Below are positions 34,797 through 44,993 of a stretch of DNA of 55,371 nt, piece by piece; position 1 is the stretch's first letter, and each line of letters begins with the position of its first letter. This DNA is from Alphaproteobacteria bacterium (GTDB lineage Bacteria > Pseudomonadota > Alphaproteobacteria > TMED109). The translations under genes and the position numbers were made by a program. The stretch is taken from NCBI GenBank assembly GCA_022819905.1, contig JAJEGJ010000059.1, positions 1 through 55,371 on the forward strand, in the 5' to 3' direction. The notes beneath the pieces were generated by a model that had not been told where the DNA came from, did no database searches, and saw nothing but the letters and a program-made list of their open reading frames with translations.

Positions 34797-35749
34797 AACG
34801 GATCCTTCTGGCCAACCCCCGGGGCTTCTGCGCCGGCGTCGAGCGCGCGATCGAGGTGGTCGAGCGGGCCATCGACATCTACGGGCCGCCGGTCTACGTC
34901 CGGCACGCAATCGTCCACAACGAACACGTGGTCGCGACGCTCCGTGATCAGGGCGTCGTATTCGTCGACGAAGTGGACGAGATCCCGGTCGGCGCCATCG
35001 CGGTTTTCAGTGCCCATGGCGTCGCCAGCAGCGTCGAGAACGCGGCGGGAGTCCGGAGCCTGCGGGTGATCGACGCCACCTGCCCGCTGGTCTCCAAGGT
35101 TCACAAGGAGGCCGTGCGCTACCACGAAGCGGGGTACGAAGTCCTGCTGGTCGGCCATCGCGGCCATCCGGAAGTGGTCGGTACTACGGGCCGGGTCAAG
35201 AGCGGCATCTTCGTGCTCGAGACGGTCGCCGACGTCGAAGCATTCACGCCGCGTGACCCGGAACGCCTCGCCTATGTCACGCAGACCACGCTGTCGATGG
35301 ACGATACGCGCGAGATGATCGACGCGCTGCAGGCCCGGTTCCCGACCATCCGGGGACCCGATCTGCGGGATATCTGTTACGCCACCCGGAACCGGCAGCA
35401 GGCCGTGCGGATCCTGGCCGGGCAATCGGACCTCATCATCGTGGTCGGCGGTTCCATGAGCTCCAATTCGGCGCGGCTGCGCGAAATCGGCGAGCAGGCC
35501 GATGTCCCGAGCTACCGCGTCAAGAGCGCGGACGACCTCGAGACCTCGTGGTTTGACGGCGTGTCGACGGTGGGCGTCACGGCCGGCGCATCCACCCCGG
35601 ACGTGCTGGTCGACATGGTGGTCGAGCGCATCCAGACCATCGCCGGGCGCACCGTGGCCGTCCAGGAACTCGAGGCAAAACCAGAGAACACCCGGTTCCG
35701 GCTGCCCAAACATTGGCCTGAGGCTGAAACCCCGCTGCATCCCGCGTAG
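34793..35749 (+). CDS. ispH: 4-hydroxy-3-methylbut-2-enyl diphosphate reductase
   Basis: A 318-residue iron-sulfur enzyme of the MEP pathway, producing isopentenyl and dimethylallyl diphosphates. The three cluster cysteines are present: Cys13 (NPRGFCAG), Cys97 (DATCPLV) and Cys195 (DICYATRNRQ). The catalytic site HAIVHNEHVV and VGGSMSSNSARL are intact. The start is a GTG at 34793 that overlaps the acyl-CoA ligase stop. Length is normal. Confidence 0.97.
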   Translation: MKRILLANPRGFCAGVERAIEVVERAIDIYGPPVYVRHAIVHNEHVVATLRDQGVVFVDEVDEIPVGAIAVFSAHGVASSVENAAGVRSLRVIDATCPLVSKVHKEAVRYHEAGYEVLLVGHRGHPEVVGTTGRVKSGIFVLETVADVEAFTPRDPERLAYVTQTTLSMDDTREMIDALQARFPTIRGPDLRDICYATRNRQQAVRILAGQSDLIIVVGGSMSSNSARLREIGEQADVPSYRVKSADDLETSWFDGVSTVGVTAGASTPDVLVDMVVERIQTIAGRTVAVQELEAKPENTRFRLPKHWPEAETPLHPA

Positions 35750-36035
35750 GCCAGAGCCCTTTTTTCGCACGTGTCGGGCCCGGGCAATCGCCAAGCCGAG
35801 GCCCGGCGTCTTCCATCAAGGTGCAATCGCCGAGTTCGTCGAGCGTCACGCCCGATGCCGCTTCTCGCCGCGCAGATCGCATACATCCCGGCACCATTCC
35901 GACAATGGTCCTGGCGTCCGGCCGCCGATCAAGCCCGGCCAGGCGACAGCATGGCCGACGGAATGCCACGCGCCCGGAACGGCGCCGCGACCAGGAAGCC
36001 GGGACCGTCCTGACCGGGTTGGGACCCTGAGCCCT
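35750..36035 (+). other. Intergenic region after ispH
   Basis: No coding frame with recognisable features is seen between ispH and the first binding-protein leader. A six-base T run at 35760-35765 follows the ispH stop by 10 nt, but the sequence before it has no strong stem. The region from 36036 onward is annotated separately. Confidence 0.4.
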
Positions 36036-36084
36036 GCTATGCTCCGCATCCTTTCACGGTCAAGGGGCTGAGGAAGGAGGGTCC
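36036..36084 (+). promoter_or_regulatory. Conserved 49-nt leader/promoter element of the first binding-protein gene
   Basis: GCTATGCTC begins exactly 49 nt before the ATG and is followed by TCCTTTCA, GGTCA and GGAAGGAGG. The same order and spacing recur at 39201-39249 before the third paralogue but not before the second. TATGCT may be a -10 box. No -35 box is obvious, so the block may also be a transcribed leader. Confidence 0.55.
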
Positions 36085-37437
36085 ATGGCCACGAAGACGA
36101 CTTCGCGCCGGATCTTCATGCAGTCCGCGGGCGCCGCCGCAGCCGGAGCGCTCGCCGCCCCCTATGTGAAGACCGCCACGTCGGCCGGAAGACTGAAACT
36201 GGGCGTCCTGGACCATTGGGTGCCGGGCACGAACCAGGCGCTCCGGCAGATCCTGACCCGGTGGGGCGAGGCCAACGGGGTCGACGTCTCCGTCGACTTC
36301 ATCACGTCGCTCGGAAACAAGCCCCTGCTGACCGCGCAAGCGGAAGCCCGCGCGAGGGCCGGGCATGACATCTTCATGCATTCCTCCGCGATGGTCCCCT
36401 TGTTCAAGGACCGGCTCGTCGCCCTTGACGACGTGGTGGAAGATATTCTGTCCACGCAAGGCCCGATCGCCGACGTCTTCCGATACGCCGGCCACCTCGA
36501 TGGCTCCTGGCGGGTGAGCCCTGCCCCTACCGGAACCAATTGCTACGCAACCGTGGCGCGGCGCGACCTCTTCCTGGAACACGCTGGCGTCGACCTGACG
36601 GAGTTGTTTCCGGCGAACGATTCGCGGGACCCCGCAAAGGTGGAAAGCTGGGACTGGGAAGCCTTTCGAAACGCGGCGGGTGCGCTCCATGCCGCCGGCG
36701 TCCCCGTCGGAGCCCCCGTTGCCCCGATCCCCGACAGCACCGGTTGGCTGACCCAGCTGTTCGCCGCCTACGGCGCCGCCGTGGTCGACGAACGGGGTGA
36801 CGTTTCCGTCAATTCCGACCCAGTACGGGAGGTACTCGAGTACGCCATCCGACTCCTGGAATTCCTGCCCGACAGCGTGTACGCGTGGGATGACGCGGGC
36901 AACAACCGATGGATCATTTCAGGCTCGGGCAGCGCCATTTTCAATCCGCCGAGCGCCTGGGCGGTCGCCAAACGCGACAGCCCCGACGTGGCTCGTCACA
37001 TCTGGCACTGCGATTCCCCCCGGGGACCGGCCGGCCGGTTTCGCACCTTCAACACGATCTTCTGGGGCCTCTGGGACTTCTCCGAAAACCAGTCCGCCGC
37101 CCGTGACCTGCTGCGCTACGTGGCGGAGCCGCATGTGGTCGCGGCCATGCTGGATGCTTCGCAGGGCTACGACCTCCCCATGGTTCTTTCGCACTACGAT
37201 CACACGAACGTGTGGGCGGATGGCCAGCCGCCAGCGGGCGGGCTGTACAACTATGCCATTCGGGGCGACGAACGGCCGATCGTCGGCGGGTACCCGGCGC
37301 CCGCTGAAATCGGCGCGAGCATTACAGTGCAGCGGGTCGTGTCCAATCTTGTCGCCCGCGTGACCCAGGGCGGGGACAGCATCGACGCGGGCATAAGCTG
37401 GGCCGAGAACGAGCTTGAAGGCGTGCTCCGCGGCTGA
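36085..37437 (+). CDS. ABC transporter substrate-binding protein, Tat-exported (paralogue 1)
   Basis: A 450-residue family-1 (carbohydrate-type) binding protein. The N-terminus SRRIFMQSAGAAAAGALAA is a twin-arginine signal (R-R-x-F) with a cleavage site near TSA-G. The mature protein has the two-lobed pattern with WDWEAF, NNRWIISGSGSAIFNPPSAWAVAK and FSENQSAARDLLRYVAEP. It should capture a sugar-like solute in the periplasm for the two permeases encoded 3.2 kb downstream. Export by Tat suggests folding before export. It departs most from its two neighbours in the mid region (HSSAMVPLFKDRL, ANDSRDPAKVES). Its ligand is not known. Confidence 0.9.
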   Translation: MATKTTSRRIFMQSAGAAAAGALAAPYVKTATSAGRLKLGVLDHWVPGTNQALRQILTRWGEANGVDVSVDFITSLGNKPLLTAQAEARARAGHDIFMHSSAMVPLFKDRLVALDDVVEDILSTQGPIADVFRYAGHLDGSWRVSPAPTGTNCYATVARRDLFLEHAGVDLTELFPANDSRDPAKVESWDWEAFRNAAGALHAAGVPVGAPVAPIPDSTGWLTQLFAAYGAAVVDERGDVSVNSDPVREVLEYAIRLLEFLPDSVYAWDDAGNNRWIISGSGSAIFNPPSAWAVAKRDSPDVARHIWHCDSPRGPAGRFRTFNTIFWGLWDFSENQSAARDLLRYVAEPHVVAAMLDASQGYDLPMVLSHYDHTNVWADGQPPAGGLYNYAIRGDERPIVGGYPAPAEIGASITVQRVVSNLVARVTQGGDSIDAGISWAENELEGVLRG

Positions 37438-37478
37438 CGGGTGCGGCTGGCAGCTCCCACCGCGGCGGTCCGGGCTTG

Positions 37479-37495
37479 CCGGCAGGAATTGCCGG
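37479..37495 (+). other. Stem-loop between paralogues 1 and 2
   Basis: CCGGCA (37479-37484) and TGCCGG (37490-37495) form a 6-bp stem with a 5-nt loop and no T-tract. Stem-loops after binding-protein genes often protect the mRNA. Confidence 0.25.
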
Positions 37496-37600
37496 TCTCG
37501 GACATGATTCCCTGCTGGCCAGACCCGCATCCGGGGCCGCGCCCCCGGTCAGCCAGGTTTCCTGACCGTTCGTGTCCCTTGAGGTGACGAAGAAGGAAGC

Positions 37601-38956
37601 ATGGACTTGACGACAGGTTCGACCCGCCGAACTTTCCTGAAAGCCGCCGGCGCCGCCGCCGCGGGGACACTCGCGGCCCCTTACGTGCAGACCGCTGGCT
37701 CAGCCGGCCGGCTGAGGCTTGGGGTCATCGACCATTGGGTACCGGGCACGAACGAGGTCCTGCAGCAACTCCTGGAACGATGGGGCGAAGCCAACCACGT
37801 CGAGGTCACGGTCGACTTCATCACCACCATCGGCAACAAGCTGCTGCTGACCGCCCAGGCGGAGTCGCGCGCCGGGTCCGGGCACGACCTTTTTGCGCTC
37901 GAATTTCACATGGTCCCGATGTTCAAGCACCGCCTGATTGCCGTCGACGACGTGGTCAACGACATCGTCGCTGCGTACGGACCCATTGCCGAACTGTCCA
38001 GGCAAGCCGCATTTCTCGACGGCGCGTGGAGAGGGGGCCCCTCCCCCGTGATGAACGCCTCGGCAGCGACCGTGGCCCGGCGCGACCTGTTCCTGGAGCA
38101 CGCCGGAATCGATCTGACCGAATGGTTTCCGGCCAGCGATTCCCGCGATCCCGCCAAAGTCGACCGGTGGGACTGGGAGGCCTTCGGCAAGGCGGCCGCA
38201 GCTCTCCACGCTGCCGGTCGACCGGTTGGCGCCGCGATTTCTCCCGTCACCGACAGCAGCGCCTGGCTGGCCCAACTGTTCGCGTCCTATGGCGCGGCCA
38301 TGGTGAACGAGCAGGGCGAAATCGCCGCGGATTCAGATGCGGTTCGCGAGGCCCTCGAATACCTGACCCGACTGGCGGAGGTCATGCCGGACAGCGTGTA
38401 TGCGTGGGACGATGCCAGCAACAACCGCTGGATCATCTCGGGCACCGGCAGCGCCATCTTCAATCCCCCGAGCGCATGGGCCGTCGCCAAACGCGATAGT
38501 CCTGACGTGGCACGACATCTCTGGCATTGCGATGTGCCGCGCGGCCCGGCCGGCCGCTTCCGGGCCTTCAACTCGGTCTTCTGGGGCATCTGGGATTTTT
38601 CCGAGAACCAGTCGGCGGCCCGGGACCTGCTCCGCTACGTGGCCGAGCCGGAAGTGGTCGTCGCCATGCTGGAGGCTTCGCAGGGCTATGACCTTCCCCT
38701 GTTTGCCTCGCATTACGATCGCACCGCGGTGTGGGCGGAGGCCGGGCCGCCTGCCGGCGGGCTCTACAACTACGCCCTCCGCGGGGACGAGCGGACGCTG
38801 ACCGACGGCTACCCCGCGCCCCCGGAGATCGCGGCACGGATCAGCTTGCAGCGCGTCGTTCCCAATCTCGTGGCCCGAGTCACGCAGGGCGGCGAGAGCT
38901 TTGACGACGCCATCGGATGGGTGGAGAACGAACTCGAAGGCGTGCTCCGGAGCTGA
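37601..38956 (+). CDS. ABC transporter substrate-binding protein, Tat-exported (paralogue 2)
   Basis: A 451-residue close paralogue of its neighbours, with the twin-arginine motif TRRTFLK at about residues 8-14 and the same AAPYVQTAGSAG cleavage region. Long blocks are shared with paralogues 1 and 3, such as DHWVPGTN, NNRWIISGTGSAIFNPPSAW and GPAGRFRAFN. AGAAGGAA lies before the ATG, but the 49-nt leader of the other two is missing, so it is either read from the upstream promoter or controlled differently. In the ligand region it has EFHMVPMFKHRL and GGPSPVMN where paralogue 3 has HAFAMVPLFKHRL and GSPSPTGT, hinting at a changed binding preference. Confidence 0.9.
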   Translation: MDLTTGSTRRTFLKAAGAAAAGTLAAPYVQTAGSAGRLRLGVIDHWVPGTNEVLQQLLERWGEANHVEVTVDFITTIGNKLLLTAQAESRAGSGHDLFALEFHMVPMFKHRLIAVDDVVNDIVAAYGPIAELSRQAAFLDGAWRGGPSPVMNASAATVARRDLFLEHAGIDLTEWFPASDSRDPAKVDRWDWEAFGKAAAALHAAGRPVGAAISPVTDSSAWLAQLFASYGAAMVNEQGEIAADSDAVREALEYLTRLAEVMPDSVYAWDDASNNRWIISGTGSAIFNPPSAWAVAKRDSPDVARHLWHCDVPRGPAGRFRAFNSVFWGIWDFSENQSAARDLLRYVAEPEVVVAMLEASQGYDLPLFASHYDRTAVWAEAGPPAGGLYNYALRGDERTLTDGYPAPPEIAARISLQRVVPNLVARVTQGGESFDDAIGWVENELEGVLRS

Positions 38957-38963
38957 CCGCCAC

Positions 38964-38984
38964 GATGGCCTGATCGCGGCCATC
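38964..38984 (+). other. Stem-loop between paralogues 2 and 3
   Basis: GATGGCC (38964-38970) and GGCCATC (38978-38984) make a 7-bp perfect stem around a 7-nt loop, 7 nt after the stop. There is no T-tract. Confidence 0.3.
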
Positions 38985-39200
38985 CCCTAGGCCTGACTGC
39001 CCCGGCGCCCGCCTCGCCCTGCCCGTAACGGACCGAGCGTTCCGGCCGCGTCGCACCACGAAAACGGCCCGGTTCACAACTCGTTACCCATGCTGGTGCG
39101 GGCCGGCACGTCACCGCAACAACTGCCGGCCGCCGGCGCCGCGAATACGGTCGGAACGCGATGCAGGGCGCTCGGCGTCAAGCAGGCGCCATGGTCTCTT

Positions 39201-39249
39201 GCTATGCTCGGCGTCCTTTCAAGGTCAGATGGCTGTGGAAGGGGGGGAC
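39201..39249 (+). promoter_or_regulatory. Conserved 49-nt leader/promoter element of the third binding-protein gene
   Basis: It matches the 36036-36084 block over its length with few changes: GCTATGCTC, TCCTTTCA, GGTCA and GGAAGGGGG at the same distances from the ATG. The copy suggests that the gene was duplicated together with its promoter, or that selection keeps both under one regulator. Confidence 0.55.
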
Positions 39250-40605
39250 ATGGGTACGAAGGCGACCGCTTCACGCCGAACCTTCATGAAGACGGCTGGC
39301 GCCACTGCGGTGGGGGCGCTCGCCGCTCCCTACGTCAAGACCGCGTACTCCGCCGGCAAGCTGAAACTGGGCCTCTGGGATCACTGGGTGCCCGGCGCCA
39401 ACGAGGCGCTGGAGCAGATCCTGACCCGCTGGGGCGAAAACAACGGCGTGGAAGTCACGATCGACTTCATCACGTCAATTGGCAACAAGCTGTTGCTCAC
39501 GGCCCAGGCCGAGTCGCGCGCCGGCTCGGGCCACGACATCTACTCGCACGCGTTCGCGATGGTGCCGCTGTTCAAGCATCGGCTGGTGGCCGTGGACGAC
39601 GTGGTCGAGGACATCCTTTCCTCCCAGGGGCCGATCGCCGAGATCTCAAGGTTTTCCGCCTTCCTCGACGGCGCATGGAGGGGGAGCCCCTCACCCACGG
39701 GAACGCTCTCGTACCCGACGGTCGCTCGCCGCGACCTGTTTCTGGAGCATGCGGGAATCGACCTCACGGAGCTGTTCCCCGCCAGCGACTCGCGGGATCC
39801 CGCCAAGATCGACGGCTGGGACTGGGAGGCCTTCCTTCAAGCTGCGGCCGGGCTGCACGCGGCTGGACGCTCGTTCGGCGCCCCGCTGGCAACCACTCCC
39901 GACGGCAGCGCCTGGCTGGCCCACCTCTTCGCTTCCTACGGGGCAGCCATGGTGGACGAGCAAGGGGAAGTCGTGGTCAATTCGGATGCCGTCCGCGAGG
40001 TACTCGAGTACCTGATCCGAATCGCCGAGTTCATGCCCAACAGCGTGTACGCATGGGACGACGCCAGCAACAACCGCTGGATCATCTCGGGAGAGGGCGG
40101 CGCGATCTTCAACCCGCCGAGTGCCTGGGCCGTCGCCAAACGCGACAACCCGGACGTGGCCAGACACATCTGGCATTTCGACGTTCCCCGGGGACCGGCC
40201 GGCCGGTTCCGCGCCTTCACGTCGTTCTTCTGGGGAATCTGGGACTTTTCCGAGAACCAGTCGGCCGCACGCGATCTACTGCGTTACGTCGCCGAGCCGG
40301 AAGTGGTGACCCAGATGCTGCGGGCCTCTCAGGGCTTCGACCTCCCCATGATCCGCTCGCACTACAACCATTCGCAGGTCTGGGCTGAGGCGGAACCTCC
40401 GGCGGGCGTGCTTTACAACTACGCCATGCTCGGCGACGAGCGGACGGTGTTTGCCGGCTATCCCGCCCCCCCGGAAATCGGGGCGCGGATCGCGACGCAG
40501 CAGATCCTCCCCACGTTGGCCGCACTGGTGACCCAGGGTGGCGAAACCATCAACGATGCCATCGGCTGGGCCGAGAACGAGCTCGAAGGGGTACTCCGCG
40601 GCTAA
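39250..40605 (+). CDS. ABC transporter substrate-binding protein, Tat-exported (paralogue 3)
   Basis: A 451-residue third paralogue, placed 51 bp before the permease genes and so probably the cognate binding protein. SRRTFMK is the Tat motif, and the signal ends near AYSAG. The ATG at 39250 has GGAAGGGGGGG just upstream. An earlier in-frame ATG would cut across the conserved leader and lacks a Tat-compatible n-region. The C-terminus WAENELEGVLRG is the same as in paralogue 1. It differs by YNHSQVWAEAEPPAGVLYNYAM at the region where paralogues 1 and 2 keep GGLYNYA. Confidence 0.92.
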   Translation: MGTKATASRRTFMKTAGATAVGALAAPYVKTAYSAGKLKLGLWDHWVPGANEALEQILTRWGENNGVEVTIDFITSIGNKLLLTAQAESRAGSGHDIYSHAFAMVPLFKHRLVAVDDVVEDILSSQGPIAEISRFSAFLDGAWRGSPSPTGTLSYPTVARRDLFLEHAGIDLTELFPASDSRDPAKIDGWDWEAFLQAAAGLHAAGRSFGAPLATTPDGSAWLAHLFASYGAAMVDEQGEVVVNSDAVREVLEYLIRIAEFMPNSVYAWDDASNNRWIISGEGGAIFNPPSAWAVAKRDNPDVARHIWHFDVPRGPAGRFRAFTSFFWGIWDFSENQSAARDLLRYVAEPEVVTQMLRASQGFDLPMIRSHYNHSQVWAEAEPPAGVLYNYAMLGDERTVFAGYPAPPEIGARIATQQILPTLAALVTQGGETINDAIGWAENELEGVLRG

Positions 40606-40656
40606 TCGCCGCGGACTGGCCGGTCGGGAAGTGATGCAGGGTACCGGCTCCGAATA

Positions 40657-41541
40657 ATGCGCGTGCTTCCCCCGTTGCTCCGGCGCAAACCCGCCGTCGC
40701 GGTACTCATGTGCGTGCCGCTGTTCGCGCTCATTCTCGGCCTTGTGGCGTATCCGTTCTTCCACGCACTCTTCCTGGCCACCCTCAACAAGGCGGAAACC
40801 GCGTTCGTCGGGCTGGACAATTTCAGCTTCCTGTTCGGACGCCAGACGTTCTGGATGGTGGTTCGCCAGAGCCTGCTGTTTGCGCTCGTGGCCGTCGTCT
40901 TCAAGGCGCTGATCGGACTCGCGGCGGCCCACGCCATCAACACGATCCCCACCAAGGGACAGCGCAAGTGGCGCGGCATGATGCTGATTCCGTGGGTTAT
41001 TCCACCGGCCCTCTCCACCCTCGGATGGTGGTGGCTGTTCGAGCCCACCTACAGCGCGATCAACTGGGGGCTGACGAAGCTGGCCGTGCCGGCCGTGCCG
41101 TGGTTGTCCGATACGTTCTGGGCCCGGTTCTCGATCATCCTCGTCAATGTCTGGGTCGGCGCCCCGTTCTTCCTGATCATGTATCTGGCGGCGCTCAAGT
41201 CGATTCCCGGCGAGCTCTATGAGGCGGCCGAGATGGACGGTGCCGGCCCCTGGCAGAAGTTCTTCCACATCACGCTGCCGATGATCCGGAACATCATCGC
41301 CATCACCACCCTGTTCTCGATCATCGTCACCCTCGCCAATTTCGACATCGTCCGCGTCCTGACCCAGGGCGGTCCGCTCAACACGACCCACCTGTTCGCC
41401 ACGTACGCATTTCGGGTGGGTATCGAGTCGGGCGATATTCCGTTGGGCGCGGCGGTCTCGCTGTTCATGTTCCCGATGCTGGCGATTCTCGCCTTCATCA
41501 TTCTCCGAAACGTGCGCCGTCGGGCGGCGAGCCTCGCATGA
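40657..41541 (+). CDS. ABC transporter permease (carbohydrate-type, MalF-like)
   Basis: A 294-residue inner-membrane protein with about six helices. The cytoplasmic EAA loop ELYEAAEMDGAGPWQKFFHITLP (from 187) couples to the ATPase. The first helix is VAVLMCVPLFALILGLVAYPFF (14-35). It pairs with the next permease, which begins inside its stop (ATGA at 41538). With the tandem binding proteins and the ATPase it forms a CUT1-type importer, in the usual binding protein-permease-permease-ATPase order. Confidence 0.93.
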   Translation: MRVLPPLLRRKPAVAVLMCVPLFALILGLVAYPFFHALFLATLNKAETAFVGLDNFSFLFGRQTFWMVVRQSLLFALVAVVFKALIGLAAAHAINTIPTKGQRKWRGMMLIPWVIPPALSTLGWWWLFEPTYSAINWGLTKLAVPAVPWLSDTFWARFSIILVNVWVGAPFFLIMYLAALKSIPGELYEAAEMDGAGPWQKFFHITLPMIRNIIAITTLFSIIVTLANFDIVRVLTQGGPLNTTHLFATYAFRVGIESGDIPLGAAVSLFMFPMLAILAFIILRNVRRRAASLA

Positions 41542-42413
41542 CCGCCGTTCCAGTCACGAGCGCCACGAGTCTTCGGGCCAACCGTCGCTGGGCGCTGATC
41601 GCCGCCTACGCGTGCCTCGGCATCTTCGTGGTCTTCTTCCTGTTCCCGCCGTACTACATGCTGGTGACGTCGCTGAAGACGAATGCGGAGATCGCCGAAC
41701 TCGCCTCCAATCCCTGGATCGTGACCGACGGCGTGACGTTTGGCCATTACAAACACTTGCTCACGGAATCGTCGTTTCCGCGGTTCTTCCTCAACACCAC
41801 CATCGTCACGGTCGTCGTGGTCGCGATCACCATGGTGATCAGCGTGCTCGCCGCGTACTCGCTGGCACGGCTGCGGTTCTGGGGCTCGGGCGTGCTCGCC
41901 ACCGGCGTGTTCCTCACCTACCTGGTGCCGGACACGCTGCTGTTCATCCCGCTGTTCAAGATCGTGGGCTGGCTCGGGCTGCTCGACACGTACTGGTCGT
42001 TGATCCTCGTGTACCCGACCCTCACCGTCCCGTTCTGCACGTGGATCATGATCGGCTATTTCGGGTCGATCCCGCGCGAACTCGACGAGGCCGCACTGAT
42101 CGACGGCGCCAACCATCTGCAGATGCTGCTCAAGGTCTTCATTCCGGTGGCCCTGCCGGGGCTGATCGCGGCGACGATTTTCGCCTTCACGGTGGCGTGG
42201 GCCAATTTCCTCTACCCGCTTGCCTACATCTATTCCGAATCGGAGATGGTCCTGACCGTCGGAACGGTCACGACACTCATCAAGGGCGACGTGTTCCACT
42301 GGGGCGGGCTGATGGCCGGCGCGCTGCTCGCCGCGGCGCCTCCCGTGATCCTCTACGCGTTCCTGATGGACTACTACATTGCCGGTCTCACCTCGGGCGC
42401 GACCAAAGGCTGA
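41538..42413 (+). CDS. ABC transporter permease (carbohydrate-type, MalG-like)
   Basis: A 291-residue second permease with about six transmembrane helices and the EAA loop DEAALIDGANHLQMLLKVFIP (183-203). It opens with a cytoplasmic N-terminus and a helix ALIAAYACLGIFVVFFLFPPYYM. The typical MalG-like phrase LKTNAEI follows. Its ATG overlaps the stop of the first permease and its own stop lies 5 nt before the ATPase start, so the three are tightly coupled. Confidence 0.93.
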   Translation: MTAVPVTSATSLRANRRWALIAAYACLGIFVVFFLFPPYYMLVTSLKTNAEIAELASNPWIVTDGVTFGHYKHLLTESSFPRFFLNTTIVTVVVVAITMVISVLAAYSLARLRFWGSGVLATGVFLTYLVPDTLLFIPLFKIVGWLGLLDTYWSLILVYPTLTVPFCTWIMIGYFGSIPRELDEAALIDGANHLQMLLKVFIPVALPGLIAATIFAFTVAWANFLYPLAYIYSESEMVLTVGTVTTLIKGDVFHWGGLMAGALLAAAPPVILYAFLMDYYIAGLTSGATKG

Positions 42414-42418
42414 TCCCG

Positions 42419-43522
<1,104 letters not shown>

Positions 43523-43577
43523 GCCGGGGTTCCGTCGGCCACGCGTCGAGACACCGACAGTGCCAGGTCCTCGGGTG

Positions 43578-44993
43578 ATGCCCGAGGTCAGCAATGCCGT
43601 CCGGCGGGACCTGAAGACCGTCGTCGGAGCGGCCGGTATCTTCACCGATCCCGCGGATCTTGAAGCTCATCTGGTCGACGAACGCGGGGCCTTTCGGGGC
43701 GTGTCCCCGGTACTCCTCAAGCCCGCCACGACCGACGAGGTCGCCGCGGTCGTACGAATCTGCGCGGATGCCGGCGTGGGCATCGTTCCGCAGGGCGGAC
43801 GGACCGGGCTTTGCGGTGGAACGGTACCTGTGACGCCGGGGGGCGAGGTCCTGGTCAGCCTCGAGCGCCTGCGGCGGATTCGGGAGCTGGATGCACAGGG
43901 ATTCACGGTGACCTGCGAGGCGGGCTGCATCCTGCGATCCCTGCAGCATGAAGCGGAGCGCGCCGATCGCCTCTTCCCTCTGTCGTTGGCGGCGGAAGGG
44001 AGCTGCACCATCGGCGGCAATCTCTCCACCAACGCGGGCGGAATCAACGTGCTGCGGTACGGCATGGCCCGGAACCTCACCCTTGGTCTTGAAGTGGTGC
44101 TTCCGGACGGGACCCTGTGGGACGACCTCGGCGCCCTGCGGAAGGACAACCGCGGCTACGACCTGAAGCAGCTGTTCATCGGCGCGGAGGGGACGCTCGG
44201 AATCATCACCGCCGCGACCATGGAACTCTTCCCGCGACCCCGGGACGTGGATACCGCGTTCCTCGCGGTGGCCGATCCGGAGGCCGCCCTCCAGCTGTTC
44301 GCTGTCGCCCGCGAGATCGCCGCCGACATGATGGTCGCCTTCGAGCTGAACGACCGAAATGCCATGGACATGGTGTTCCGGCACATGGACGGTGTCCGCG
44401 ATCCGTTTCCCACCCGGTACAGCTGGTACGTGCTGCTCGAGCTCACGGCCGGCGTCGACGGCCACGCCCGGGCCGCCGGCGAGCAAATTCTAGCGGCGGC
44501 GGTCGACCGCGGTCTCGTGCTGGATGGCGTGCGCGCCGCGAGCCTCGCCCACCGCGCCGGTCTATGGCGCCTGCGGGAAACCGTGACCGAGGCGCAGAAG
44601 CACGAGGGGCGCAGCCTCAAGCACGACATCTCGGTTCCCGTGGTCGCAATCCCGCAGTTCATCGACGAAGCCACGGCGGCGGTCCAGCGCGACTGGCCGG
44701 GATACCGGGTGCTCGCGTTCGGCCACGTGGGGGACGGCAACATCCACTTCAACGTGTTCGGGCCGCCCGGAGATGACGGCAACCGTCTGTTTGCGGAAAG
44801 CGACGTGATCGAGGACGCCGTGTTCGCGATCGCCGATCAAATGCAGGGAAGTTTCAGCGCCGAGCACGGGATCGGACAGCTGAAGCGCCGGGCCCTACGG
44901 CAGTACGCCCCGGCCGGGTCCCTCGAGATGATGAAGGCCTTGAAACGCACGCTTGACCCGCAGGGGATCATGAACCCCGGCAAGGTGGTGTGA
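43578..44993 (+). CDS. FAD-linked D-2-hydroxyacid dehydrogenase (GlcD / D-2-hydroxyglutarate dehydrogenase-like)
   Basis: A 471-residue flavoprotein of the VAO/PCMH type. The FAD-binding domain shows PQGGRTGLCGGTVP and SLAAEGSCTIGGNLSTNAGG. The C-terminal domain has FGHVGDGNIHFNV with the metal-binding histidines and ends SAEHGIGQLKR...PQGIMNPGKV, all typical of D-2-hydroxyglutarate and D-lactate/glycolate dehydrogenases. No cysteine-rich Fe-S domain is attached and no GlcE/GlcF partner is nearby, which favours the single-subunit type. The ATG at 43578 was preferred to a GTG 18 nt upstream on conserved length. It lies 55 bp after the transporter and may act on its substrate. Confidence 0.9.
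   Translation: MPEVSNAVRRDLKTVVGAAGIFTDPADLEAHLVDERGAFRGVSPVLLKPATTDEVAAVVRICADAGVGIVPQGGRTGLCGGTVPVTPGGEVLVSLERLRRIRELDAQGFTVTCEAGCILRSLQHEAERADRLFPLSLAAEGSCTIGGNLSTNAGGINVLRYGMARNLTLGLEVVLPDGTLWDDLGALRKDNRGYDLKQLFIGAEGTLGIITAATMELFPRPRDVDTAFLAVADPEAALQLFAVAREIAADMMVAFELNDRNAMDMVFRHMDGVRDPFPTRYSWYVLLELTAGVDGHARAAGEQILAAAVDRGLVLDGVRAASLAHRAGLWRLRETVTEAQKHEGRSLKHDISVPVVAIPQFIDEATAAVQRDWPGYRVLAFGHVGDGNIHFNVFGPPGDDGNRLFAESDVIEDAVFAIADQMQGSFSAEHGIGQLKRRALRQYAPAGSLEMMKALKRTLDPQGIMNPGKVV

Follow-up and report, generated by a model that had tools for sequence, protein, structure and literature searches.

Why should a single ABC importer be accompanied by three closely related solute-binding proteins? 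The window, i.e. the whole stretch of 55,371 nucleotides that was analysed, lies on contig 39 of an alphaproteobacterial assembly of 3.6 Mb (96% complete, 123 contigs). It carries three consecutive genes encoding Tat-type solute-binding proteins, here called A, B and C, followed by the genes of one translocator (Table 1). The sequence-only reading of this DNA suggested that the copies might widen the ligand range, respond to different conditions or be redundant. We favour the view that A, B and C are ligand-diversified receptors of one CUT1-type (MalFGK-like) importer, derived from tandem duplications in the stem of the genus, and we give it a probability of about two in three (0.68). The two duplications would have produced copies that were probably kept because they deliver different but related ligands, or one ligand at different affinities, to the same translocator. 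The evidence comes from the gene inventory, the history of the copies, their ligand pockets and a leader found upstream of two of them.

Table 1. Features of the receptor and translocator locus, its leaders and the orphan paralogue (positions in the window, except for D)
Feature	Position	Strand	Evidence or content
Leader of A	36035..36084	+	TGCTATGCTC, extended -10-like, then possible hairpin TCCTTTC...GGAAGGA over ribosome-binding site
A, Tat-type solute-binding protein, 450 aa	36085..37437	+	SBP_bac_1 47.6 bits
B, Tat-type solute-binding protein, 451 aa	37601..38956	+	SBP_bac_1 67.1 bits
Leader of C	39200..39249	+	same element as before A
C, Tat-type solute-binding protein, 451 aa	39250..40605	+	SBP_bac_1 58.9 bits
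F, MalF-like permease	40657..41541	+	BPD_transp_1 59.6 bits
G, MalG-like permease	41538..42413	+	BPD_transp_1 53.1 bits
K, MalK-like ATPase	42410..43522	+	ABC_tran 112 bits, OB_MalK 57.8 bits; also TOBE_2
GlcD-like FAD-linked oxidase	43560..44993	+	FAD-oxidase_C 151 bits
D, orphan fourth paralogue	G000:C96:255847-257175 (L119:9845-11191)	minus (on L119)	52% identity

Binding-protein genes and the adjoining translocator

The three genes are indeed consecutive paralogues on one strand, and they are followed by only one permease pair and one ATPase, as had been noticed from the sequence. All three proteins score above the Pfam gathering cut-off of 26 bits for SBP_bac_1. Their identities are 71.1% (A/B), 72.9% (A/C) and 74.5% (B/C) at the protein level and 73-75% at the nucleotide level, and the three segments quoted from them in the sequence-only reading are exact and occupy identical alignment columns. 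Gene C starts at a conserved ATG (39250) and not at the TTG (39199) listed by the ORF finder; the ATPase gene starts at a TTG, with a possible ATG 9 bases further downstream. Two distinct BPD_transp_1 permeases and an ATPase with the MalK regulatory fold make up a CUT1 (MalFGK-type) architecture. The best NCBIfam matches of the permeases (MalF, GlcT and UgpA; GlcU and MalG) all remain under their equivalog cut-offs.

Export by the Tat pathway can be proposed for A, B and C from their N-termini, which carry the twin-arginine motifs SRRIFMQ, TRRTFLK and SRRTFMK, respectively, and from the single tatC of their own genome. The profile models respond weakly: with the Tat model TIGR01409 (cut-off 16.7) B scores 17.1 bits and C 16.4 while A is not reported, and with the TAT_signal models B and C lie around or under cut-off. 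The RRx-phi-phi motif is present in 82 of the 85 family relatives (alignment rows), and Tat-type signals have been reported on many binding proteins of alphaproteobacteria (PMC3305326). Hence the earlier remark that sugar-type binding proteins use the Tat pathway less often may hold at most in general; in this family it is the rule.

Do the receptors share one translocator? In a search of the genome at E 1e-10 the F permease matched itself alone; the G permease had a single, distant second match (29% identity). No second permease pair of the same type was thus found in this genome, which supports the notion of one translocator for several binding proteins. As the assembly is fragmented, the absence of a second pair is not fully certain. 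A fourth paralogue, D, lies elsewhere in the genome of all seven members of the genus. It branches earlier in the tree, outside the clade formed by the A-B-C genes of the genus and its sister genera. It adjoins a branched-chain-amino-acid (Liv)-type transporter encoded on the other strand. Upstream of D are genes for an acetolactate-synthase-like TPP enzyme and a 3HCDH-type dehydrogenase as well as two SDR genes, and D has no permease of the F or G type as a neighbour. There are therefore four paralogues and one close permease pair, a receptor excess of the DppA1-A5 type. The simplest reading of this gene content is that four receptors serve one translocator, and A, B and C would then all dock on the same permeases.

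Age and history of the triplet

We searched for the history of the triplet in its own genome and in 60 related genomes. Each of the seven genomes of the genus has A, B and C in this arrangement, followed in the genus loci by F, G, K and the oxidase. Loci of the sister genera have a single binding protein ahead of F-G-K, and most of the sister-genus genomes bearing the gene have one full-length copy (56-59% identity). The named members of the genus are metagenome-assembled Alphaproteobacteria or Rhodospirillales, and among the sister-genus records are MarineAlpha9 and further assemblies of marine origin. In the tree, the three copies group together (support 100); within this clade A and B are sisters (96) and C is the first to branch. 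According to this tree, both duplications are placed at the stem of the genus.

Synonymous divergence between the copies (dS ~1.0-1.1) exceeds that between orthologues (0.37-0.50 on average). The comparison of dN/dS across relatives that had been proposed as a check reveals purifying selection on A, B and C alike, with within-genus values of 0.104, 0.108 and 0.055, respectively, next to 0.017 for the F permease, 0.034 for the G permease and 0.067 for the K ATPase. C, which adjoins the permeases, is the slowest-evolving of the copies. Given the high dS, the low dN/dS and the same order throughout the genus, the copies are best described as old, intact and constrained, with C the most conserved. 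C is probably nearest to the ancestral function.

These results leave very little room for the suggestion that the copies are redundant through a recent duplication and heading for loss. The tandem layout and the identities of 71-75% speak for such an event. Yet, the dS values, the fixed gene order and the low dN/dS of every copy all contradict it, and no broken copy was found in the genomes of the genus. Another possibility is that one or two copies act mainly as sensors, e.g. in chemotaxis or regulation, and not as transport receptors. The faster divergence of A and B relative to the permease-adjoining C would agree with such a role. But the genes adjoining the cluster include none for a sensor or for chemotaxis, and the long invariant blocks common to A, B and C (sites 271-350) would also serve putative docking. 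We regard the sensor role as quite improbable.

Gene conversion was considered as the main cause of the invariant blocks and was rejected, since third-position differences between copies are ~0.2-0.6 in every window of the scan; the same scan revealed no near-identical tract between copies. A separate observation concerns gene B of one other genome of the set (G006, L041:8424-9773), which over codons ~45-270 is unusually near to the B gene studied here: the third-position difference is 0.09-0.27, mostly under 0.2, compared with ~0.2-0.36 for A and C. This pattern suggests that B may have recombined between species.

Tandem receptors are not restricted to this genus. Stella and a related assembly, Hyphomicrobium and its relatives, and another family of the class (L122:11821-14579, minus strand, 84.6% identical) likewise have tandem pairs ahead of one permease pair. 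A further tandem pair is found in a Rhizobium-labelled assembly, with no permeases seen within the fetched stretch. In the tree, the members of some pairs are each other's sisters and those of others fall into older lineages; the tandem arrangement therefore arose more than once. In the assembly IP29b_bin.128 we observed three relatives (L047, L051 and L052), of which a single one is accompanied by permeases, possibly another case of several receptors per pump.

The ligand pocket

If the copies were kept for different ligands or affinities, their pockets should bear traces of it. The best solved match is the beta-glycoside-binding protein of T. thermophilus (PDB 7c63 to 7c71), followed by MalE3 of T. 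maritima (6dtq, 6dtr) and a Thermotoga lettingae protein, with Z ~37; the AlphaFold2 model of C has a mean pLDDT of 91.3. The T. thermophilus and T. maritima proteins have the same fold as A-B-C over 380 residues and are their relatives by sequence profile, yet they are only 18-20% identical. They differ in other respects too: no twin-arginine motif is present in the precursor of the T. thermophilus protein, and ligand-stacking Trp positions are replaced in A-B-C.

We called a site paralogue-divergent when at least two copies had no residue in common, which applies to 114 of the 416 mature sites (27%). The sequence-only reading held that the differences are concentrated near the ligand-facing middle of the protein, and in this general form the idea finds no support. 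The ten cleft loops, chosen from predicted secondary structure and not from atomic coordinates, are not significantly enriched when pooled (28/84 divergent sites vs 86/332 elsewhere, p 0.17), and neither is the segment 97-112 that had been singled out (6/16 vs 108/400, p 0.39). Most cleft loops are in fact invariant. The loops 144-157 (p 0.004) and 207-221 (p 0.0002) are enriched, and both were selected after seeing the data. The stretch 395-440, at a distance from the ten loops, is divergent too (19/46 sites, p 0.03), so that part of the divergence may be drift.

The part of the idea that stands concerns a few sites aligned with mutated ligand residues. W41, W67, E117 and W177 were mutated in the PDB series of the T. 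thermophilus protein, as given by the entry titles, and are a choice independent of our data. MAFFT aligns them with sites 76, 103, 153 and 217, all four of which are paralogue-divergent (chance 0.0056 at a base rate of 27%). In the hhalign register W67 falls one residue off, at site 104, and three of the four are divergent (p 0.065). Residues otherwise almost or fully invariant in the family have also been lost. Trp103, present in 95% of the sequences outside the genus, is replaced by Ala or Ser in A, by Ala in C and by His or Gln in B; D keeps it and has Gln at site 43. Trp43 and Gly151 are both found in 100% of the sequences outside the genus; in place of the former A has Leu and B has Ile, and in place of the latter B has Met or Ser. 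A and B would have changed more than C at ligand-facing positions. Taken together, the divergence at the aligned ligand sites and the lost tryptophans and glycine are good but not conclusive evidence that binding has changed.

Expression, ligands and comparable systems

An alignment of the upstream regions revealed a block that extends to the start codon and is common to A and C in the seven genomes of the genus; B lacks it. When the 3.6 Mb genome was searched with up to 3 mismatches, the 28-nt core of the block (36035-36062 and 39200-39227) was found at just two places, 50 nt ahead of A and 50 nt ahead of C. The core starts with TGCTATGCT, which is extended -10-like, and its TCCTTTC can pair with the ribosome-binding site. 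A scan of the region for sigma-70-type promoters found none (1.2 expected), so the TGCTATGCT element owes its detection to the alignment. An Rfam search of 35700-43700 returned sub-threshold matches only, including an antisense SAM-IV (E 0.94). All 11 pairs of the putative hairpin are kept in every row; eight of them are invariant, and no pair has changed in both partners. The folding energies of the leader lie within the range of shuffled sequences. An RNA hairpin is plausible, and it might exert translational control. Because no pair changes on both sides and the folding energies are ordinary, we offer the shared control of A and C by this leader as a hypothesis. Since A and B are sisters, the leader may have been lost at B or omitted by the duplication. 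For its translation B might depend on the A transcript, or it might have its own promoter.

The leader also speaks for an account in which A, B and C all bind one ligand equally well and only their expression differs, in amount or timing, A and C following one signal and B another, with near-neutral changes in the proteins. A and C have the same leader, at the same distance and unique in the genome, and B has none. The intergenic gaps (139-163 nt between A and B, 205-293 nt between B and C) leave room for separate promoters, and the pooled enrichment of the cleft loops is not significant. Yet, the fixed loss of the family-invariant W43, W103 and G151 and the divergence of the sites aligned with mutated ligand residues are hard to fit with identical binding, and dN/dS values near 0.1 imply constraint in each copy. 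We therefore consider this account unlikely. Within the favoured scheme of ligand-diversified receptors one can picture a lineage-specific set of four receptors for one importer, in which loss of the near-universal Trp103 preceded or accompanied the triplication, the pocket was rebuilt in three ways, and A and C came under one duplicated leader that hides the ribosome-binding site. This fuller scenario is tentative, and we hold it to be rather doubtful as a whole.

What might the ligands be? The oxidase gene that follows K reaches 255 bits with the glcD model, yet under the equivalog cut-off. It is present at the same place in the genus loci L039-L043 and L123 and was not detected in the sister-genus loci fetched. 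It is possibly the catabolic partner of the transporter, and it could hint at a hydroxy-acid ligand. A relative on a Thermus plasmid (35%) lies near kdgK, an Ldh-family oxidoreductase gene and SDR genes, and upstream in one sister-genus locus are genes for a TPP enzyme and for an aldolase of the HpaI type. Such neighbours (KdgK, Ldh-type, HpaI-type aldolase, TPP enzymes) may hint at acids as ligands; around the genes of more distant relatives no consistent clue emerged. Judging loosely from these genes, the ligand class might be sugar acids or other hydroxy- or keto-acids.

Receptors sharing one translocator are well known and the A-B-C locus sets no new principle. In enteric bacteria HisJ and LAO (ArgT), tandem paralogues that are ~70% identical, share HisQMP; there, the importer takes up amino acids, the proteins are two and not three, and they belong to another binding-protein cluster. 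In P. aeruginosa one translocator, DppBCDF, serves the receptors DppA1-A5; four of their genes are clustered and the fifth is a distant orphan. Their substrate profiles are mostly overlapping but unequal (PMC4206461). The likeness extends to paralogous receptors, one translocator, and clustered genes plus a distant orphan at ~50% identity. The Dpp system is however a peptide importer of a different family with unrelated ligands, the sharing is here proposed from gene content, and a leader on two of three genes is peculiar to the A-B-C locus. Synechococcus WH8102 has three PstS homologues, in which a single Ser/Thr difference in the pocket was proposed to raise affinity tenfold (PMC10846223). 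That lineage also kept three paralogues, and the change is comparable with S76T in B; its ligand is phosphate, one and the same for all three PstS.

What is new here is how old and how firmly fixed the triplet is, together with the loss of the tryptophans, the fourth, orphan receptor and the leader of A and C. The triplet fits a known strategy for broadening the uptake range of one pump. It also provides a clean natural experiment on an import pump gaining receptors, with single-copy sisters, three fixed copies and an older orphan, and the small set of pocket changes is amenable to binding assays. As tandem multi-receptor layouts occur in several other lineages of the family, the identity of the ligands would be informative well beyond this locus.
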